A stretch of DNA of 53,261 nt, taken from contig NZ_VSFC01000009.1 of NCBI RefSeq assembly GCF_008084905.1, forward strand, positions 1-53,261. Reading direction: 5' to 3'. The translations under genes and the position numbers were made by a program. Source of the stretch: Xanthomarina maritima. GTDB taxonomy: Bacteria; Bacteroidota; Bacteroidia; Flavobacteriales; Flavobacteriaceae. Numbering within the stretch: the first letter of the stretch is position 1; each line of letters opens with the position of its first letter. The notes beneath the pieces are model-generated. The model made no database searches and had not been told where the DNA came from. It saw nothing but the letters and a program-made list of their open reading frames with translations. Below are positions 6,435 to 14,971 of the stretch, in pieces.

Positions 6435-6890
6435 CTATTGACAACCTTCTTTTCTTCTAGTATCAATTAAGTAAATGATTTTCCAGTTTCCATTATCATT
6501 AAATAGCTGGAATGAATTGACGCCACAATGACTAAACTGTCCATTAAACCAAAACTCGTAAGGAGTCCAAGCGTTAGCCATATTGCCGTCAATTTGAATA
6601 TTATAGCCAAGTAAACGCTCATCCCATTTCTGGTCTGCTGATCTATTCGCAATGGCTAAAATTAATTTATCTGAACTTTCAGTAGCTAACACATCTTTTC
6701 CTTCTTTACTTTTAAATGTTGTTTGCGTTGGAAATTTATCCAGCATAACAGATTTCATAAGGGTTGTATCTCCTTTATGAAAGCCTTCAAAGAAAGTATC
6801 TATTGCTAATTTAACCTGAGTTTCTTCATCATGTTGAGCCGTGATAGTTGTTGTAATTAATAGTACTAAAAAAGTAATAATGCGTCCCAT
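6435..6890 (-). CDS. Secreted NTF2-like (SnoaL/DUF4440-type) protein
   Basis: 151 aa. Signal peptide MGRIITFLVLLITTTITAQ. The mature part has the cone-shaped NTF2-like pattern: an N-terminal helix around VKLAIDTFFEGFHKGDTTLM, a central Y-N-I-Q-I-D-G strand followed by ANAWTPYEFWFNGQFSHCGVNSF, and the closing strand NWKIIYLIDTRRKEGC. Small flavobacterial proteins of this kind are often labelled nuclear transport factor 2 family or putative lumazine-binding. No catalytic residues are recognisable, so the ligand is unknown. It is convergent with sdaA and divergent from panB. Confidence 0.75.
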   Translation of the reverse strand: MGRIITFLVLLITTTITAQHDEETQVKLAIDTFFEGFHKGDTTLMKSVMLDKFPTQTTFKSKEGKDVLATESSDKLILAIANRSADQKWDERLLGYNIQIDGNMANAWTPYEFWFNGQFSHCGVNSFQLFNDNGNWKIIYLIDTRRKEGCQ

Positions 6891-7847: not shown

Positions 7848-8555
7848 GTGGCAAAAAATTCAAATAAAATACTTTCAACAAAAGAGAATCTTCAGGTTCT
7901 TTACGAAGACAACCACATCATCATCGTAAACAAACGTGCTGGAGATATAGTTCAAGGAGATAAAACTGGCGACAAACCCTTAAGCGATGTTGTTAAAGAC
8001 TATATAAAAGACAAATACAACAAACCAGGAAATGTGTATCTTGGTGTTATTCATAGACTAGACAGACCCACAACTGGAGTAGTTATGTTTGCTAAAACTA
8101 GCAAGGCTTTACCTAGACTTAATAAATTATTTGCAGATAAAAAAACAAATAAAACCTATTGGGCTTTAGTGAAACAAGAACCATCAAAAAAACAGGATAC
8201 ATTAATTCATTGGTTAAAAAAGAATCCGAAAAACAATAAATCTACGGCTTATCCAAATGAAATTCCAGATGGCAAAAAAGCCATTCTTCATTATCAGATT
8301 ATTAAAAAATTAGATAATTACTTCTTACTTGAAGTTACTTTGGAAACTGGAAGACATCATCAAATACGTGTGCAATTAGCAAGTATAGGTTGTTCAATTA
8401 AAGGTGATTTAAAATATGGTTTCGACAGAAGTAATAAAGATGCAAGCATAAGTTTACATGCCAGAAATTTACAGTTTGTGCATCCTGTTTCTAACGAAAA
8501 TATTAATGTAACTGCTCCTTTACCAAGCGATTCTGTTTGGGATGCTTGCCTTTAA
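7848..8555 (+). CDS. RluA-family pseudouridine synthase
   Basis: 235 aa, starting at a GTG (7848) 17 bases after panB; no in-frame ATG fits better. These enzymes isomerise specific uridines of rRNA or tRNA. The catalytic motif II is VIHRLDRPTTGVVMFAKTS, with the conserved Asp in HRLD. The N-terminal VLYEDNHIIIVNKRAG is motif I, and LETGRHHQIRVQLASIG with GDLKYG are motifs III and IIIa. It lacks an S4 domain, like the shorter RluA/RluC-type members, so the exact substrate cannot be stated. Its stop overlaps the convergent histidine kinase stop by four bases. Confidence 0.93.
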   Translation: MAKNSNKILSTKENLQVLYEDNHIIIVNKRAGDIVQGDKTGDKPLSDVVKDYIKDKYNKPGNVYLGVIHRLDRPTTGVVMFAKTSKALPRLNKLFADKKTNKTYWALVKQEPSKKQDTLIHWLKKNPKNNKSTAYPNEIPDGKKAILHYQIIKKLDNYFLLEVTLETGRHHQIRVQLASIGCSIKGDLKYGFDRSNKDASISLHARNLQFVHPVSNENINVTAPLPSDSVWDACL

Positions 8556-9388
8556 TCATTAATAGCTCTTTTTAAGATAGGATATTCTATTTGAAGCTGG
8601 ACACCTTCATTTGGTTTTGAAGTTAGACTAAACTTAGATTCTATCAGTTCTGCTCTACTTTTCATATTTATTAATCCAGCTCCATTTTTAACGGTTTCCA
8701 TATCAAATCCTATTCCATCGTCTTTAGCTTGAATAATAAGCATTTCTTCTGAATAATTTAAAGATATGTTTAAATGTTTCGCTTTAGAATATTTTACTGA
8801 ATTAGACATAAATTCCTGTATAATTCTAAATAAAATAATAGCGTCCTTATTATTTTTAAATACATCTTTTTCACCTTCGCTAATTAGCTCCACTTCCATG
8901 AGTTTCAAGCGCTTTAAACGATTTAATTCATTTTGAATAGATTCTTCAAAACCAGCATTTAATATAACATCTGTATTTAATGATTTTGAAAGTGCTCTTA
9001 CTTCTTGAAGACTTTCTTTAATAACTTTAGAAGTGTCTGTAACTTTTTCTTTTAAATCGTCATGAACTTGGCTTGTTAACATATTAATTTGCATACTGGC
9101 AAAAGCTAAAAGTTGACCAACGTTGTCGTGCAATTCTCTACCAACATGTTTTAAAGTTTCTTCTTGAATTTCGGTTTGAGTTTGAGCTATCTCTTCGTCA
9201 AAGGCTTGTTGTTGTCTTATTTTATCTAAAAGGAGTTTGTTTTTTCGCTTTTGAAAAACAATAAAGAAGATTACAACCAAGGTAGTTACAATTAGTAAGA
9301 CAACTATCATATAAATTAACAGATAGCGTTCTGCAGAGGTAGAAACCGAAGGTTGTGTTTGTAAAAATATATTAATTAGGTGAATCAT
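8552..9388 (-). CDS. NarL-type sensor histidine kinase (HisKA_3), no adjacent response regulator
   Basis: 278 aa. One transmembrane segment (about 24-45, YLLIYMIVVLLIVTTLVVIF) is followed by a coiled, Q/E-rich linker. The dimerisation/phosphoacceptor helix has HVGRELHDNVGQLLAFASMQ (phospho-His in ELHDN). The HATPase_c domain has the N box (EFMSNSVKYSKA), G1 (AKDDGIGFD) and G2 (GAGLINMKSRAELIES). The N-terminus before the membrane segment is only about 20 residues, too small for a sensory domain, so the signal probably comes from a partner. Its start overlaps the upstream seven-helix membrane protein by 17 bases, which suggests translational coupling and makes that protein the obvious partner. 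No NarL-type response regulator lies nearby; it must act in trans if it exists. Confidence 0.92.
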   Translation of the reverse strand: MIHLINIFLQTQPSVSTSAERYLLIYMIVVLLIVTTLVVIFFIVFQKRKNKLLLDKIRQQQAFDEEIAQTQTEIQEETLKHVGRELHDNVGQLLAFASMQINMLTSQVHDDLKEKVTDTSKVIKESLQEVRALSKSLNTDVILNAGFEESIQNELNRLKRLKLMEVELISEGEKDVFKNNKDAIILFRIIQEFMSNSVKYSKAKHLNISLNYSEEMLIIQAKDDGIGFDMETVKNGAGLINMKSRAELIESKFSLTSKPNEGVQLQIEYPILKRAIND

Positions 9389-10085
9389 TGTTTGGTTTTG
9401 AGAATATTAGGGCAACAACAAATGATAAGTACATAAATATATTAGCATATAGCATAATTAGCCATTTTAATTCGGCTTGGTTTGGGTCTGTAGCTGCATT
9501 GCCACACACAAAATGTACCAAAGGAATGGTTACTAACAACCAGATTAAAAGGATGCCACTTATATAAAAATGAAAATCTGTATAAAACTCAAGAATTTTC
9601 TCAGTATGAAGCAATTCATAAATATAAAACACAGCACTTAACATGATAATGGACATGTTTCCAATTCGAATCATTTTAAAGGTGCCTTCAAAAAATTGTT
9701 GAAAATTCAATACAATATTTCCAATGGAAATAATAAGAAACAAATACAAAGCGTATTGCAGTATGCTTTTTAAAAAGTTGTTTTTAAGCAACTTTCTATA
9801 ATACCAAGCAAAAAATATAGCTGAGCCTAAATACCAAGTTAACGTATGCCACCAAAAATTGAATTTAAAAACTGAGCTTTCTATTAAATAATAAAGACCT
9901 AATTGATTTAAAATCCTGGCATAAGAACCTAACACTTCAGTAACAAACACATAAATTAAGAAGTAAATAAAGTATTTAACTGGTGTTTGTTTGTACTTTT
10001 TAAATACAAGTAAACCAACAAACGCTGCAATAAATATAACAGCTATATTGATAAACATATAATTTTGAAGTAGGGTGTCTTTCAT
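9372..10085 (-). CDS. Seven-helix membrane protein, paralogue 1 of 3 (unknown family)
   Basis: 237 aa with about seven hydrophobic helices (roughly 10-28, 37-54, 80-97, 104-122, 138-154, 168-188, 207-230). It shares with its two upstream paralogues the pattern KYKxTPVKYFIYFL, then E-x-x-G-S-Y, FWWHTLTW, IYELLHTEKI, a WLLVT motif in helix 6, and an N-IFMYLSFVVAL-IF-xKP end. No extracellular domain and no catalytic motif is visible. It overlaps the downstream histidine kinase by 17 bases, so an upstream sensory or docking role is likely, but this is inference. I do not recognise a named domain. Confidence 0.8.
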   Translation of the reverse strand: MKDTLLQNYMFINIAVIFIAAFVGLLVFKKYKQTPVKYFIYFLIYVFVTEVLGSYARILNQLGLYYLIESSVFKFNFWWHTLTWYLGSAIFFAWYYRKLLKNNFLKSILQYALYLFLIISIGNIVLNFQQFFEGTFKMIRIGNMSIIMLSAVFYIYELLHTEKILEFYTDFHFYISGILLIWLLVTIPLVHFVCGNAATDPNQAELKWLIMLYANIFMYLSFVVALIFSKPNNDSPN

Positions 10086-10157
10086 TAATTACAACTTGTT
10101 ATTAAAAAATAAATATAAAGATTAAAAAAGGTATTTAAGAGTTTAAAATACAAAATT

Positions 10158-10865
10158 TTACACGTCTTGCTCAGGTTTGCACCATATTAAGGCAAAAGCA
10201 AATATGCTATACATTAAAATATTCGAGATTAAATAAATGTACCATTTTATCATTATAAAATCCCAATCGGCTTCAGTAAAATATTTTTCAAAAAAACTTA
10301 AAGGTGTTGTAACAAGCCACCAAATAAAAATGGTTACAGCAATGTAAAAATAAATAGATCTTGAAATATTAGTGAGCCTTTCAGAATTTATCAATTCAAT
10401 AAAATAAAAAATTAAACTCAATAGTATCACAAGAACACTTAAGATACTTAAGTATTCTGACCTGTAAGAAAAGAATGCGAGAGGGTCATAAAAAATGGAT
10501 ATTAATAAAAACAGTAAATAAATAAATTGACAAATTTTTATGATTTGTTTAAACATATGAGACTTATATCTTAAACTAAAAAACCAAGAATAAAAAAAGG
10601 CTGCAGCAGAAGTCCAAAAAAGTGTAAACCACCAATAGTTGCGTTCTATTAAAGTTCCTTCTATTAAATACTCTAAGTCATAATCCTTTAAATGACGTGG
10701 ATAATTACCGATGGTTTCGACAAAGACTATCCAACCTAAAAACCAAATAAAATATTTGACTGGAGTGTTTTTATATTTATTATAGACTATAAGACCTACA
10801 ACAAAAGCTAATATTTCTATGCTCTTCGTTAAAAATGTATAATAATCATATAAAAATTCTTTCAC
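10158..10865 (-). CDS. Seven-helix membrane protein, paralogue 2 of 3 (unknown family)
   Basis: 235 aa with the same helix spacing as its neighbours. Shared positions include YNKYKNTPVKYFIWFLGW, VETIGNYPRHL, YWWFTLFWTS, FYFIELINSERL, WWLVTTPLSFFEKYF and the closing NILMYSIFAFALIWCKPEQ. The last three motifs are closer to paralogue 3 than to paralogue 1. A decayed lipoprotein fragment (10903-11013) lies immediately upstream, and 72 AT-rich bases separate it from paralogue 1. No known family recognised; membrane location is certain from composition. Confidence 0.8.
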   Translation of the reverse strand: MKEFLYDYYTFLTKSIEILAFVVGLIVYNKYKNTPVKYFIWFLGWIVFVETIGNYPRHLKDYDLEYLIEGTLIERNYWWFTLFWTSAAAFFYSWFFSLRYKSHMFKQIIKICQFIYLLFLLISIFYDPLAFFSYRSEYLSILSVLVILLSLIFYFIELINSERLTNISRSIYFYIAVTIFIWWLVTTPLSFFEKYFTEADWDFIMIKWYIYLISNILMYSIFAFALIWCKPEQDV

Positions 10866-10902
10866 TATGTAATCGGGTTATGTATAATGATATCTATAAA
10901 TA

Positions 10903-11013
10903 CTAAAAAGCTATTTTTCTGTATTTTGAATAAGCAACTAAATATTCATATACACCATCCATAGTATACCCTAGCTCTTTAGATTCGTTTTCAGCATAAT
11001 TAAAAATTCTCAT
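10903..11013 (-). pseudogene. Remnant of a second copy of the NYAENESK lipoprotein gene
   Basis: On the minus strand 36 codons read MRIFNYAENESKELGYTMDG followed by VYEYLVAYSKYRKIAF and a stop. The full-length lipoprotein encoded at 11762-12265 contains YLNYAENESKDLGYTMDG followed by VRVYLGA, so the two are clearly homologous. DNA similarity continues upstream of the ATG (CTTAAAAGA is shared) but with a one-base length difference that breaks the frame, and the signal peptide and the Pro/Gly-rich tail are missing. It could be a new tiny gene, but decay after tandem duplication is simpler. Confidence 0.7.
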
Positions 11014-11034
11014 AGACCTCTTTTAAGTTAAAAT

Positions 11035-11754
11035 TTAGATTTCTTGTTTTGGATCACACCAAATTAAAGCAAATGAAAATGTTAAGTACATAAATAAGTT
11101 TGAAAATAAATACACATTACTTCTTAAATTTAAATAGCCTATATCTAATGCAGAAAAATATACTTCATAAAATAAAAGAGAGGTTATAATTAACCACCAT
11201 AAAAACAAAGTAATACTTATTATAGAATTTAACGATTTATAAAAGACTAATATTTTGTCACTATTGAGAATTTCAATAAAGTATAAGCAAATACAATTCA
11301 AAATGACTAATGCACCAAAAATATTGACAAATTTTAATTGTGAATTAAAGAATGAGTTTAAATTTTGACTAATATAAATAACAGAACAAAACAAAAATAT
11401 GAAACAGACATACTTTACAATTTTTTTAAAACTTCTAGTTTTTAAAATTACATAATAATAGTAAGACATAAATAAGACACTTCCTATATTCCAAAAAGTA
11501 GTAAACCACCAAAAATTTCTGCTAAAATAAGTTTCTTTTAAATAATCTCGTAGACCATGAAGTTGTTCGTATTCAATAACATAATATGGATAACTTCCAA
11601 TAAAATCAACGAATACCACATAAATTAAATAGTATATAAATATTTTGCTATTATAATTTTTATATTTTTTATAATATACAATCCCAATAACAGCACATAC
11701 AATTAAAATTAGGTCATTTAATTGTTCACTATACCTATATAATAAATCAAACAT
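11035..11754 (-). CDS. Seven-helix membrane protein, paralogue 3 of 3 (unknown family)
   Basis: 239 aa, first membrane protein of the cluster in transcription order. Shared motifs: YYKKYKNYNSKIFIYYLIY, FIGSYPYYV, NFWWFTTFWNIG, LYFIEILNSDKI, LWWLIITSLLFYEVYF and NLFMYLTFSFALIWCDPKQ. It is more divergent in the first loop, where TPVKYF is replaced by NSKIFI. It begins 7 bases after the intact lipoprotein gene, so the two form a tight pair. The same order (lipoprotein, then membrane protein) is echoed by the remnant plus paralogue 2. Function unknown. Confidence 0.8.
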   Translation of the reverse strand: MFDLLYRYSEQLNDLILIVCAVIGIVYYKKYKNYNSKIFIYYLIYVVFVDFIGSYPYYVIEYEQLHGLRDYLKETYFSRNFWWFTTFWNIGSVLFMSYYYYVILKTRSFKKIVKYVCFIFLFCSVIYISQNLNSFFNSQLKFVNIFGALVILNCICLYFIEILNSDKILVFYKSLNSIISITLFLWWLIITSLLFYEVYFSALDIGYLNLRSNVYLFSNLFMYLTFSFALIWCDPKQEI

Positions 11755-11761
11755 GAATTAA

Positions 11762-12265
11762 CTATTGAGGATAATTAGCTGGTGGAGGGTTTCCTGGATT
11801 TCCTGCATTTAGACCTCCTCCAGGAATATCTCCACTATCTGGTGGCAACATATTAAATAAGGTGCTGTTTCCTTGAGAGATGTTTTCAACGCCAGTTGGC
11901 ACTATAAACATAGTTGTGTAACCAACTTCTTTAGTTGTTGCATGAGCTCCTAGATACACACGAACACCATCCATAGTGTAACCTAAATCTTTAGATTCAT
12001 TTTCAGCATAATTTAAATAATCGCGCAAGTCTTTTAAGGACCACCAAGAAGACCGGTTGTCTGGACGTTTTACTATAGAATCGCTAATTAAAGTATGCCT
12101 GCTATTAAAGGCTTCATCCAAAGTTTTGGCTTCCTTTGGTGTAATAAGTCCTTTGGGTGCTACAATGGCAACTTCAGTTTCTTCAACACTACAACTTGGG
12201 CAAAAATAATAGGTAGCAAAAGCGCCAATAAGAATTCCTAAAATAAGTAAACTAAATTTTTTCAT
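11762..12265 (-). CDS. Small membrane-anchored or lipoprotein-like protein with NYAENESKDLGY motif
   Basis: 167 aa from the ATG at 12265. A longer reading from 12325 would overlap the comM end and has no extra recognisable sequence, so I prefer MKKFSLLILGILIGAFATYYF as the true N-terminus. A single hydrophobic segment is followed by CPSC, so it could be a lipoprotein or a signal-anchored protein. The middle holds RSSWWSLKDLRDYLNYAEN and, just after, ESKDLGYTMDGVRVYLGA. The C-terminal 30 residues are Pro/Gly/Asn-rich (PPDSGDIPGGGLNAGNPG). I recall similar motifs in uncharacterised flavobacterial proteins but no function. It is followed after 7 bases by membrane paralogue 3. Confidence 0.75.
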   Translation of the reverse strand: MKKFSLLILGILIGAFATYYFCPSCSVEETEVAIVAPKGLITPKEAKTLDEAFNSRHTLISDSIVKRPDNRSSWWSLKDLRDYLNYAENESKDLGYTMDGVRVYLGAHATTKEVGYTTMFIVPTGVENISQGNSTLFNMLPPDSGDIPGGGLNAGNPGNPPPANYPQ

Positions 12266-12312
12266 AATTATAATAGATTGGTTAATTAATGTTTTTAAAG
12301 TTAACAAAAAAA

Positions 12313-13851
12313 TTAGCCTAGCCAACCTTCTCTGTCTAAACTTCTGTATTGGATAGCTTCACTAATATGCGAGCCATTTATGTCTTCGCTTCCTTCTAAA
12401 TCGGCAATTGTACGTGAAACTTTTAATATTCTGTCGTAAGCTCTAGCTGAAAGATTTAATCGTTCCATAGCTGTTTTAAGTAATTGCATAGATGTATCAT
12501 CTAGCAAACAGTATTTCCTAATTTGTTTGGTATTCATTTGCGCATTATAATGTACTGTATTAGAATCTTCAAAACGTTTGGTTTGAAGGACTCTGGCTGC
12601 AGTTACTCGTTTTCTAATGTCAATGGAAGATTCTCCTTTTCTAGTATCTGACAGTTTTTCGAAAGGCACAGGAGTGACTTCTATATGAATATCGATTCTG
12701 TCCAATAAAGGTCCTGAAATCTTACTTAAATAGCGTTGCATTTCGGCTGGAGAGGATGTTACTGGTGAATCTGGATCGTTAAAATAACCACTCGGACTCG
12801 GGTTCATACTAGCAACCAACATAAACGACGAAGGATAGGTTACCGTAAACTTCGCTCTGGAAATGGTTACTTCTCTGTCTTCCAAAGGCTGTCGCATCAC
12901 TTCCAGAACTTCGCGCTTAAATTCTGGTAATTCATCTAAAAATAATACACCATTATGCGACAAAGAAATTTCTCCTGGTTGTGGATAACTGCCTCCTCCA
13001 ACTAAAGCGACGTTAGAAATGGTATGATGAGGACTTCTAAATGGACGTTGTGCCATAAGTCCTGTGTTCTCCTTGACCCTTCCAACAACAGAATGAATTT
13101 TAGTGGTTTCTAAAGCTTCATGTAAAGTCATTGGTGGTAAAATACTGGGTAATCGTTTAGCAAGCATGGTTTTTCCTGCGCCTGGAGGGCCAATTAAAAT
13201 AATGTTATGTCCTCCAGCTGCCGCGATTTCCATACAACGCTTGATGGATTCCTGGCCCTTCACATCGGAAAAATCGAATTCTGGGAAATTGAGACTTTTA
13301 TTAAATTCTTCTTCTACATTAATAATGGTTTGCTCTAATGCTTCACCTTTATCAAAATAATTGATAACCTGTTCTATATTTTCAACACCATAGACGTTTA
13401 ATCCAGAAACGATGGCAGCTTCTTTCGTGTTTTGAATTGGTAGTATAAAACCCTTAAATCCTTCTTCTTTCGCTTTGATGGCAATAGGCAAAGCGCCTTT
13501 GATAGGCTGTAAAGAACCGTCTAGGGATAACTCTCCCATAATTAGAAAATCTTCTAAATCTTCGGCTTGAATTTGATTGGTTGCTGCAAGAATTCCGATG
13601 GCTAAGGTTAAATCGTATGCAGAGCCTTCTTTGCGTAAATCGGCTGGAGACATGTTAATAATAATCTTTTTACCTGGGATTTTAAAACCATTATTTTGTA
13701 AAGCTGCTGCTATTCTAAAATTACTTTCTTTAATTGCATTGTCTGGCAAACCAACCAAATGATATCCTATACCTATGTCCACATTTACTTCCACGGTAAT
13801 GGTAGTCGCCTCTACTCCAAACACAGCACTTCCAAAGACTTTTTTAAGCAT
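12313..13851 (-). CDS. comM: YifB/ComM-family AAA+ ATPase (Mg-chelatase-like)
   Basis: 512 aa from the ATG at 13851 ([15 protein letters not shown]); a TTG two codons earlier is unnecessary. ComM is a hexameric helicase that promotes branch migration during natural transformation in other bacteria. Domains: N-terminal S5-fold/Lon-like region with [20 protein letters not shown] and [20 protein letters not shown]+ core with Walker [17 protein letters not shown] and Walker [12 protein letters not shown]; then C-terminal YifB domain ([20 protein letters not shown]). All key motifs are intact. It is likely the first gene of a leftward transcript that could continue into the lipoprotein/membrane-protein cluster (47-base gap). 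Confidence 0.95.
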
Positions 13852-13966
13852 ATTCAATTGTTTGCTTAAATGTAAGAAAAAACATTTATTATTAAAGAAC
13901 TAAAACAACCCAAATAGCTTATTCATAATTCTGAATCAATTTATTTAATGCAAAGAATTAGATTGG

Positions 13967-13974
13967 TATATTTG
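13967..13974 (+). promoter_or_regulatory. -7 element of nitronate monooxygenase gene
   Basis: TATATTTG, a perfect TAnnTTTG match, 19 bases before the ATG at 13994, giving a very short leader. Confidence 0.6.
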
Positions 13975-13993
13975 TAATTAAAGCTACAAAATA

Positions 13994-14971
13994 ATGAGTA
14001 AACCATCGTTTATAAAAGATTTAACATTACCAGCTGTTGCTGCCCCAATGTTTTTAATTTCTGGACCACAATTAGTTATTGAATGCTGTAAAAATGGTAT
14101 TGTAGGAACCTTTCCTGCTTTAAACCAACGTACAAGTGAAGGCTTTGAAGCTTGGTTGATAGAAATTAAAACAGCTCTTGCTACGTTTGAAAAAGAAACT
14201 GGCAAAAAAGCTGCACCTTATGGTGTCAATCTCATTGTACACAATACAAATCCACGTTTACAAGCAGATTTAGAGCTTTGTATAAAACATAAAGTACCTT
14301 TAATTATTACGTCTTTGGGAGCAGTTTCAGAATTGGTAGATGCTGTTCATTCTTATGGTGGATTGGTGTTTCATGATATTATAAAAAAACGTCATGCAGA
14401 AAAAGCTGCTGAAGCTGGAGTAGATGGATTAATATTAGTTTCTGCAGGAGCTGGTGGACATGCTGGAACCATTAATCCGATGCCTTTGGTAGCCGAAATT
14501 AAAAGCTTTTTCAAGAAAACCATCCTACTTGCTGGAACTATTAGTACAGGTCGAGATATTGCTTCTATCTTACAAATGGGAGCCGATTTAGCTTATATGG
14601 GAACCCGTTTTATAAATACTGAAGAAAGCAAAGCTCCAAAAGAATACAGAGATATGATTATTGAAGCTGGAGCAGACGATATAATTTATACAGCAGCTAT
14701 TTCTGGTGTTGCAGCAAACTTTCTAGGTCCTAGTATAGAAGCTATGGGAATCACCGAAGAGATGCTTAAACGAAAAAAGAAAGTCGATTTTGGTGAAGAA
14801 TTAACTGTACATAAAGATGATGCTAAAGCTTGGGCAACCATTTGGTCTGCTGGACAAGGTGTTACTAATATTCATAATGCACCTAGTGTAGCAGAATTAG
14901 TTTCAGAACTTAAAAAAGACTTTAAATTGGCTATTGAAGAGCAAGTTAAGTATCTAGAGATTTATAAGTAA
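13994..14971 (+). CDS. Nitronate monooxygenase (2-nitropropane dioxygenase family)
   Basis: 325 aa, FMN-dependent TIM-barrel enzyme oxidising alkyl nitronates; the family also includes FabK-like enoyl reductases. Motifs: LPAVAAPMFLISGPQLVIEC (N-terminal FMN site), PYGVNLIVHNTNPR, LIITSLGAV, LILVSAGAGGHAGTINPMPL with the catalytic His in GGHAG, LLAGTISTGRDIASILQMGA and DLAYMGTRFINTEES. The absence of FabK features in context and the monocistronic layout favour nitronate monooxygenase, but substrate is inferred from family. It is flanked by comM (divergent) and a convergent hydrolase gene. Confidence 0.88.
   Translation: MSKPSFIKDLTLPAVAAPMFLISGPQLVIECCKNGIVGTFPALNQRTSEGFEAWLIEIKTALATFEKETGKKAAPYGVNLIVHNTNPRLQADLELCIKHKVPLIITSLGAVSELVDAVHSYGGLVFHDIIKKRHAEKAAEAGVDGLILVSAGAGGHAGTINPMPLVAEIKSFFKKTILLAGTISTGRDIASILQMGADLAYMGTRFINTEESKAPKEYRDMIIEAGADDIIYTAAISGVAANFLGPSIEAMGITEEMLKRKKKVDFGEELTVHKDDAKAWATIWSAGQGVTNIHNAPSVAELVSELKKDFKLAIEEQVKYLEIYK

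Follow-up and report, generated by a model that had tools for sequence, protein, structure and literature searches.

How can a histidine kinase that exposes almost no sequence outside the membrane perceive a signal, and on what does it act when no response regulator accompanies it? Both questions are raised by a locus of Xanthomarina maritima on contig NZ_VSFC01000009.1, whose full 53,261 nucleotides constitute the window analyzed here; the contig belongs to a 3.04 Mb genome that is 99.98% complete. On its minus strand, the locus encodes a small protein (SP), three tandem seven-helix membrane proteins (TM1, TM2 and TM3) and a HisKA_3-type histidine kinase (HK). The original prediction, made from the letters of the DNA, had singled out these genes as a candidate undescribed signalling module in which a lipoprotein binds an outside signal, membrane proteins relay it and the kinase reports it in the cell. 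The module itself is borne out by its anatomy, by its conserved neighbourhood and by a literature search, judged by titles, that found no description of it; the proposed order of events is not. The account preferred here, which stands at about an even chance of being right, is a three-component sensor complex in which exchangeable seven-helix sensors would control a one-helix kinase in trans, with SP as an accessory.

A conserved neighbourhood of three components

The reading frames of the locus are tightly packed. SP (11762..12265, 167 amino acids (aa), ATG start) ends 7 bases before the start of TM1 (11035..11754, 239 aa), which is followed by TM2 (10158..10865, 235 aa, GTG start) and the kinase-proximal TM3 (9372..10085, 237 aa). 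The TM3 frame in turn overlaps that of HK (8552..9388, 278 aa) by 17 bases, so that both the gap and the overlap were correctly described at the outset. SP is recognized by its open reading frame, HK by its Pfam domains, and the three TM genes by their frames, their alignment and their membership of the subtype clades described below. The closest named relatives at this locus belong to Xanthomarina and Bizionia.

A search for TM proteins was positive for 25 of 60 relatives, for 191 of the 299 genomes from the window's family and for 53 of 395 sampled across the phylum. The window genome is counted here, as are the genomes that supplied the profile; at the family and phylum levels, scoring was confined to the 7-9 best candidates of each genome. 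Gene order was followed in 99 loci, a non-random set consisting of 19 of 19 from named genomes and 80 stretches hand-picked from hit lists; one locus repeats another (L086 and L041), and counts out of 97 drop L086 and L045. An HK-like kinase adjoins a TM gene in 92 of the 99 loci. L047 is cut by a contig end, and in L162 the kinase-TM overlap is longer than the limit set. Two further loci (L116 and L141) couple SP and TM to a His_kinase-type kinase and a LytTR regulator in place of the HisKA_3 and NarL types, a pairing in which TM and SP look like the constant input and the transmitter like the exchangeable part. The TM and HK frames overlap in 84 of 89 cases when the furthest-upstream start is taken, a choice that overstates the overlap. 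In 85 of 97 loci the first TM gene is immediately preceded by SP, at a median distance of 8 nt, and some of the other 12 have a diverged upstream gene, judged by eye (for example L129 and L144). TM copies number from one to five per locus, with a single copy in 77 of 97, next to what is usually one full SP and one HK. The SP-TM-HK neighbourhood is thus conserved across Bacteroidota.

All three components are under purifying selection. Ratios of nonsynonymous to synonymous divergence (dN/dS) against two related species are 0.14-0.15 for TM3, 0.11-0.17 for SP and 0.06-0.11 for HK, and that of TM2 is 0.15 against one species; these ratios are rough, being drawn from few pairs with dS near or above 1 in several.

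Seven-helix proteins of a seemingly undescribed class

TM1, TM2 and TM3 are paralogues, as first proposed. TM2 and TM1 are 35-36% and 33% identical to TM3, respectively, and 38% identical to each other, with 44 columns invariant across all three. The sequence motifs initially listed as common to them largely hold, with some departures: the FWW motif is YWW in TM2, E-LxNS is ELLHT in TM3, and WWLVT is exact in TM2 only. The AlphaFold2 model of TM3, the only paralogue modelled, comprises seven long helices with a mean predicted local distance difference test (pLDDT) score of 89.3 and a predicted template modelling (pTM) score of 0.85. By charge counts, all three window proteins are predicted to have an outside N-terminus and an inside C-terminus.

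A match to a named family, such as a transporter, would have changed the picture, and none was found above cut-off. Pfam returned nothing at that level among 26 TM members, the nearest touches being Multi_Drug_Res in one member (E 0.064) and Rnf-Nqr in window TM1 (E 0.6). NCBIfam likewise gave nothing above its curated cut-offs for the window's TM proteins and SP, and the TM profile had no match among PDB sequences. Structural comparison of the TM model by Foldseek produced 235 matches, none at E 0.001 and the best at E 0.56. The best-ranked PDB structures are mostly G protein-coupled receptors and rhodopsins, with TM-scores up to 0.54 among the 50 matches listed and E values of at least 0.56, and the modelled likeness to these receptors is not significant. 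The TM proteins therefore form a class seemingly without a described family.

These searches also bear on the notion that the kinase monitors the activity or flux of TM proteins working as small transporters or as lipid-modifying enzymes, as in transporter-coupled sensing. Their polytopic architecture and a kinase devoid of a sensor domain would suit such an arrangement, in which substrate might vary from subtype to subtype. Above cut-off, however, the 26 members match no transporter or enzyme family, nor does the profile match any PDB sequence, and we regard the idea as rather improbable.

A shuffled array of old paralogues

In a TM tree of 63 rows built by a quick method, the copies fall into subtypes. 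TM1-type (7 rows), TM2-type (6 rows) and TM3-type (8 rows) sequences each form a clade with a Shimodaira-Hasegawa-like approximate likelihood ratio (SH-aLRT) support of 100, as does a fourth type of 4 rows from L035, L037, L050 and L092. Related genomes combine these types differently: types 1, 2 and 3 occur in the window and in Xanthomarina sp. F2636L, types 1 and 3 plus the fourth in X. spongicola, and types 2 and 3 plus the fourth in LYZ1037. Bizionia arctica carries five TM copies, and the TM set of X. gelatinilytica is split over two contigs. Orthologues of TM3 and TM2 are 70-79% identical between species, whereas the window paralogues (TM1-TM2 and TM2-TM3) share only 35-38%, so the paralogues are old.

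Between TM1 and TM2 lies a remnant of a second SP copy that had been overlooked (10903..11013, minus strand). Its 36-aa frame, beginning MRIFNYAENES, scores 33 bits, and a second search placed it at 10921-11004 (E 0.00125). Truncated SP copies in the window and in L034, L036, L038, L039, L040 and L047 start at the same motif, which makes it probable that a TM gene and the end of SP were duplicated as a unit. Some of these copies keep open frames of 87-92 aa with dN/dS of 0.13-0.37, and so may not all be dead.

Comparison with X. spongicola points to exchange of array members between species. The window TM1 protein is identical to its X. spongicola counterpart over 235 compared columns, with a dS of 0.01, while dS reaches 1.39 between the HK genes of the same two genomes. 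At the DNA level, window positions 10978-14500, spanning comM, SP and TM1, are 94% identical between the two (99-100% in TM1 and 81-98% in comM), and the matching parts on the kinase side are 67-82% identical. The high-identity stretch ends inside the SP remnant, and window 10978-14500 is an apparent recombination tract. An identical TM1 despite a far-diverged HK indicates that recombination has shuffled the TM array, while one SP and one HK are usually kept.

An intact kinase that has lost its regulator

HK carries one N-terminal hydrophobic helix, identified from its sequence, followed by HisKA_3 (6.8e-11, 43 bits; cut-off 24) and HATPase_c (2.2e-10, 41.4 bits; cut-off 26.4), in keeping with the NarL-type kinase of little membrane-external sequence first proposed. 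No response regulator is present in the window locus, again as stated earlier. The description of HK as an orphan captures this absence; the absence is nevertheless a derived state, since related operons have their own NarL-type regulator. Such a regulator lies directly 3′ of the kinase in 51 of 92 kinase loci, although two of the 51 are weak (L146 at 141 bits; L147 at 62 bits, on the locus edge). The regulator of L103, when checked, comprised Response_reg plus GerE.

A kinase tree (90 rows, quick method; L045, L086 and L147 omitted) groups the 37 regulator-less kinases of the window's kind in one clade with an SH-aLRT support of 95. The nearest row outside it, L049, has a regulator (support 99), so that a single loss explains all 37. 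Within this clade, the genus codes of 21 rows are all different. In searches with a regulator profile, 5 of 5 regulator-bearing genomes scored 334-357 bits, whereas the best matches in 10 of 10 genomes taken as regulator-less reached 110-146 bits, with 137.5 bits in the window genome. Among the former, G119, G283 and G034 hold a second copy at 298-314 bits; second-best matches of 157 bits (G107) and 142 bits (G028) mark the range in which other regulators score. The ten genomes searched were G000 (the window genome), G001, G002, G004, G005, G012, G021, G024, G035 and G099, some of them classed as regulator-less by kinship and G099 without locus inspection. Their low scores rule out a regulator that was merely relocated in these ten genomes. 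The cognate regulator has apparently been lost genome-wide from the window lineage.

The kinase itself has remained intact. H87, D88, N89, Q92, N196, G225, G227 and G238 are conserved in 37 of 37 regulator-less kinases and D223 in 97%. In this count, 17 regulator-bearing rows were used, and L129, L144 and L158 were dropped from the regulator-less set; these three lack a regulator by adjacency only, that of L158 lying one gene further on. The window HK thus retains the phospho-acceptor His (H87) as well as D88 and Q92 of the DxxxQ phosphatase motif, a motif known from HisKA_3 kinases (PMC3510030). Because these signatures persist without a cognate regulator, the kinase most likely acts on another one. 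Among partner candidates in the window genome, LytTR types aside, C25 already has a kinase of its own, the phosphorylation site of C24 seems altered and C27 is a regulator without a kinase within about 3.5 kb. Matches that score like these three occur in regulator-bearing genomes too and favour none of them as the new partner.

The C24 gene (G000:C24; positions 4590-5219 of L172) encodes Response_reg plus GerE, with SEID in the receiver where LLDI(N) is usual, so that the phosphorylation site seems, on sequence grounds, to have changed. Its neighbours are presumably gldB, gldC, nadE and dnaG.

Might the window locus instead be a decaying two-component system? Regulator loss, truncated SP copies between the TM copies and a 59-aa TM fragment in L039 are what decay would leave behind. 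Against it, the 37 regulator-less kinases form a single clade across 21 genus codes with every key catalytic residue kept, HK, TM and SP are all under purifying selection, and the TM array has expanded in the window and in several relatives. Decay is accordingly very improbable.

Co-variation of the components

Correlated divergence among the components was assessed by mirror-tree tests on the 58 loci with exactly one TM, SP and HK, of which 31 have both flanking controls (RluA and PanB) and 40 have a response regulator (RR); L086 and L045 were dropped. The TM-HK pair gives the highest partial correlations, 0.51 when SP, RluA and PanB are controlled for (n=31) and 0.64 with SP and RR as the controls (n=40), neither reached in 500 permutations. 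SP-HK follows with 0.24 and 0.34 (0/500 each), and SP-TM is weaker still at 0.07 (39/500) and 0.21 (0/500). Within the kinase, SP tracks the membrane segment best (0.30 versus 0.13 and 0.08 for the other parts, 58 loci). As co-variation is a correlation of rates and no proof of contact, a TM-HK link is only suggested by these values.

A small protein found with and without a leader

SP consists of an N-terminal membrane anchor (MKK...LGILIG), a helix plus beta-hairpin domain, a low-complexity linker and a conserved C-terminal PPPANYPQ tail. The window protein has no lipobox by eye and reads as membrane-anchored at its N-terminus, contrary to its initial designation as a lipoprotein; its positive N-terminus would place the domain outside. 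SP has no Pfam match above cut-off, and comparison with PDB sequences gave nothing above the curated cut-off. A match of the SP profile to PRP40 (E 0.0047, one 56-position stretch) was judged a chance hit. The AlphaFold2 model is poor (mean pLDDT 63), which renders its Foldseek search uninformative.

The N-termini of 95 SP frames of at least 100 aa fall into four classes: 31 have an LGxxIG-type anchor, 15 another hydrophobic leader and 13 a lipobox-like leader, and 36 are leaderless. Classes were assigned by simple thresholds and patterns, and L088, L095 and L099 are perhaps misclassed through start choice. Lineages differ in the type they carry (leaderless, anchored or lipobox-bearing), for example L099-L122 as compared to L125-L127, and the predicted TM orientation is constant among them. 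The usual TM orientation is predicted for 75 of 80 TM proteins that accompany a leadered SP and for 35 of 35 with a leaderless SP only; the counts cover 118 of 134 TM proteins, excluding 4 from mixed loci and 12 whose locus has no recognized SP. Leader classes that vary under a constant TM orientation predict an SP domain that faces one side of the membrane in some lineages and the other side in others. This argues against a simple outside-binding protein.

The chain first proposed, in which SP is an extracytoplasmic binding protein that catches an outside signal, TM relays it and HK reports it, fits the window SP, anchored as it is with its domain predicted outside, and draws on the 13 lipobox-like relatives and on an SP gene set directly upstream of TM. 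Beyond the leaderless proteins, it is countered by the low SP-TM co-variation, in a test that is insensitive, and by TM copies that diversify while one SP usually serves the whole array. It is unlikely, and the order from outside signal through lipoprotein to TM is not upheld.

A different role is suggested by the SP tail. A PP pair occurs within the last 32 residues of 79 of 93 SP proteins, as compared to 4.6% of internal 32-mers. SP could in principle be a secreted protein signal for quorum or kin sensing, with the PP tail recognized by TM as its receptor. The agr and ComQXPA signal systems offer models of this kind, in line with a small gene directly upstream of a membrane protein, a kinase and often a regulator, and the leaderless SP forms recall leaderless signal precursors. 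The recombined SP-TM1 stretch shared with X. spongicola is also compatible with such a role, as is the SP of L036, which is only 60% identical to that of the window when those of L035, L037, L038, L040 and L047 are 80-95% identical. Outside L036, however, SP is conserved among the closest loci, with the low dN/dS given above in two pairs; its co-variation with TM is weak, and many SP proteins are membrane-anchored or lipobox-bearing. A secreted signal is thus distinctly improbable. In particular, the dN/dS values and the weak co-variation lower a polymorphic ligand-receptor model, L036 being the exception.

Proposed mechanism

In the three-component sensor complex favoured here, the TM proteins, N-terminus outside and C-terminus inside, would be the sensory units that sit beside the single helix of the kinase. 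They may set the autokinase/phosphatase balance of HK in trans, by analogy with the action of UhpC on UhpB or of LiaF on LiaS. The subtypes may answer different membrane or outside cues, so that an array would amount to a bank of exchangeable sensors for one kinase. SP would serve as a shared accessory subunit near the membrane segment of the kinase, and TM, HK and SP would form a physical complex. In many relatives the kinase would work on the adjacent NarL-type regulator; in the window lineage, where the regulator was probably lost once, the intact kinase would act on another.

Several observations weigh against this proposal. In three of the 99 loci (L128, L134 and L139), TM and SP are present but no kinase was seen on the strand in question up to 2.6 kb away. 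A receptor is expected to vary more in its outer helix halves, and although these are the more variable in 5 of 7 helices of TM, the difference is not significant (p 0.12). TM tracks all three parts of the kinase about alike (0.30, 0.24 and 0.27; 58 loci), and not the membrane part alone. Finally, HK and RR, which are expected partners, reach a partial correlation of only 0.11 (87 of 500 permutations as high), and TM and RR one of 0.20 (5/500); the low HK-RR value means that the mirror-tree test is no reliable detector of partners.

A more far-reaching version is possible, if clearly more tentative: a recombining bank of interchangeable seven-helix receptors, belonging to an undescribed Bacteroidota-wide superfamily, would feed a rewired orphan kinase, with an accessory domain that works from either side of the membrane. 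If the proposal is true, a large fraction of Flavobacteriaceae would use an unannotated class of membrane sensor, with subtypes passing from one species to another and the kinase staying in place. The locus would also provide a natural experiment on kinase survival without a cognate regulator across at least 21 genus-level groups, and its paralogous sensor sets a means of studying the trans control of a one-helix kinase by a seven-helix bundle.

Surroundings of the locus

The five genes are flanked by comM, named by likeness, and by the convergently read rluA, named by Pfam. A promoter and terminator scan found 31 promoter-like sites against 26.5 expected and no terminator, Bacteroidota-type promoters being outside its coverage. 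Elsewhere in the window, 6435-6890 holds a weakly Lumazine_bd_2-like gene (E 0.0083, below cut-off) that is kept at the same place in several relatives.

Comparison with known systems

Seven-helix bundles are also found in the 7TMR-DISM family (PF07695), which the window genome encodes once and which occurs in 11 of 31 genomes from this group of bacteria. Its matches lie in long frames of 316-971 aa, whereas TM stands alone. As a parent family of TM, 7TMR-DISM was rejected: hhalign gave a probability of 1.8% against 14 family sequences, and 1 of 26 members matched at E 0.042 only.

Another counterpart is a second Bacteroidota operon with the same gene order, namely a small protein (SP2), a membrane protein (TM2nd), a HisKA_3 kinase and a NarL-type regulator (L179, L180, L226, L227, L229 and L230), which adjoins comM in L179, L180 and L227. 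Its small protein is leaderless with a conserved end, and in L179 the kinase is of the HisKA_3 type and the regulator comprises Response_reg plus GerE. TM2nd is remotely similar to TM: in hhalign, one sequence, that of L230, matches the TM profile with a probability of 78% (E 1.8e-5). It represents a different subfamily, however, and SP2 ends in CP(P)xxCD.xSPL in most cases, with PP in 4 of 6. TM2nd and SP2 of L179 have no Pfam match. TM2nd occurs in 27 of 149 genomes of the family, including that of the window, where it has no kinase. Modules of the SP-TM type likely make up a superfamily.

The TM2nd relative of the window genome (G000:C10:3453-4049; L224 3402-4067) is a distant one. It follows a 418-aa gene whose start is signal-like, and no kinase, regulator or small protein lies beside it. 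The same pair is found in G035 (L225) and G126 (L231).

Among characterized two-component systems, one of the nearest in design is UhpABC, which senses hexose phosphates through a separate membrane sensor (UhpC), a membrane kinase (UhpB) and a regulator (UhpA). UhpC is a 12-helix protein of the major facilitator superfamily (MFS). By contrast, the TM3 model has seven helices, and a Pfam search of 26 TM members yielded no MFS match at E 0.1. In NCBIfam, HK obtains its lowest E value against UhpB, at 86 bits far short of the 408-bit cut-off, and the NarL-type regulator of window relatives such as L103 is a further shared trait; the extra small protein, the sensor arrays and the regulator loss set the window side apart. 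Stimulation of a membrane kinase in trans by a separate membrane sensor is described for UhpABC in PMC10352792.

LiaFSR and VraTSR share with the present module an accessory membrane protein and a kinase that exposes hardly any sequence outside the membrane. HK also matches LiaS, below cut-off (82.4 of 450 bits). In the Lia and VraTSR systems these parts are joined by a NarL-type regulator, and Lia is not known to have an SP. Pfam holds LiaF models, and at E 0.1 none of them matched the 26 TM members in this Pfam search, which included no direct profile comparison with LiaF; TM, in addition, has seven helices. In the absence of a stimulus, LiaF inhibits LiaRS, according to PMC7191749. Judged by its anatomy, the SP-TM-HK module would work like UhpABC or LiaFSR with no sign of belonging to either, and it is seemingly an undescribed form of accessory-sensor two-component system.

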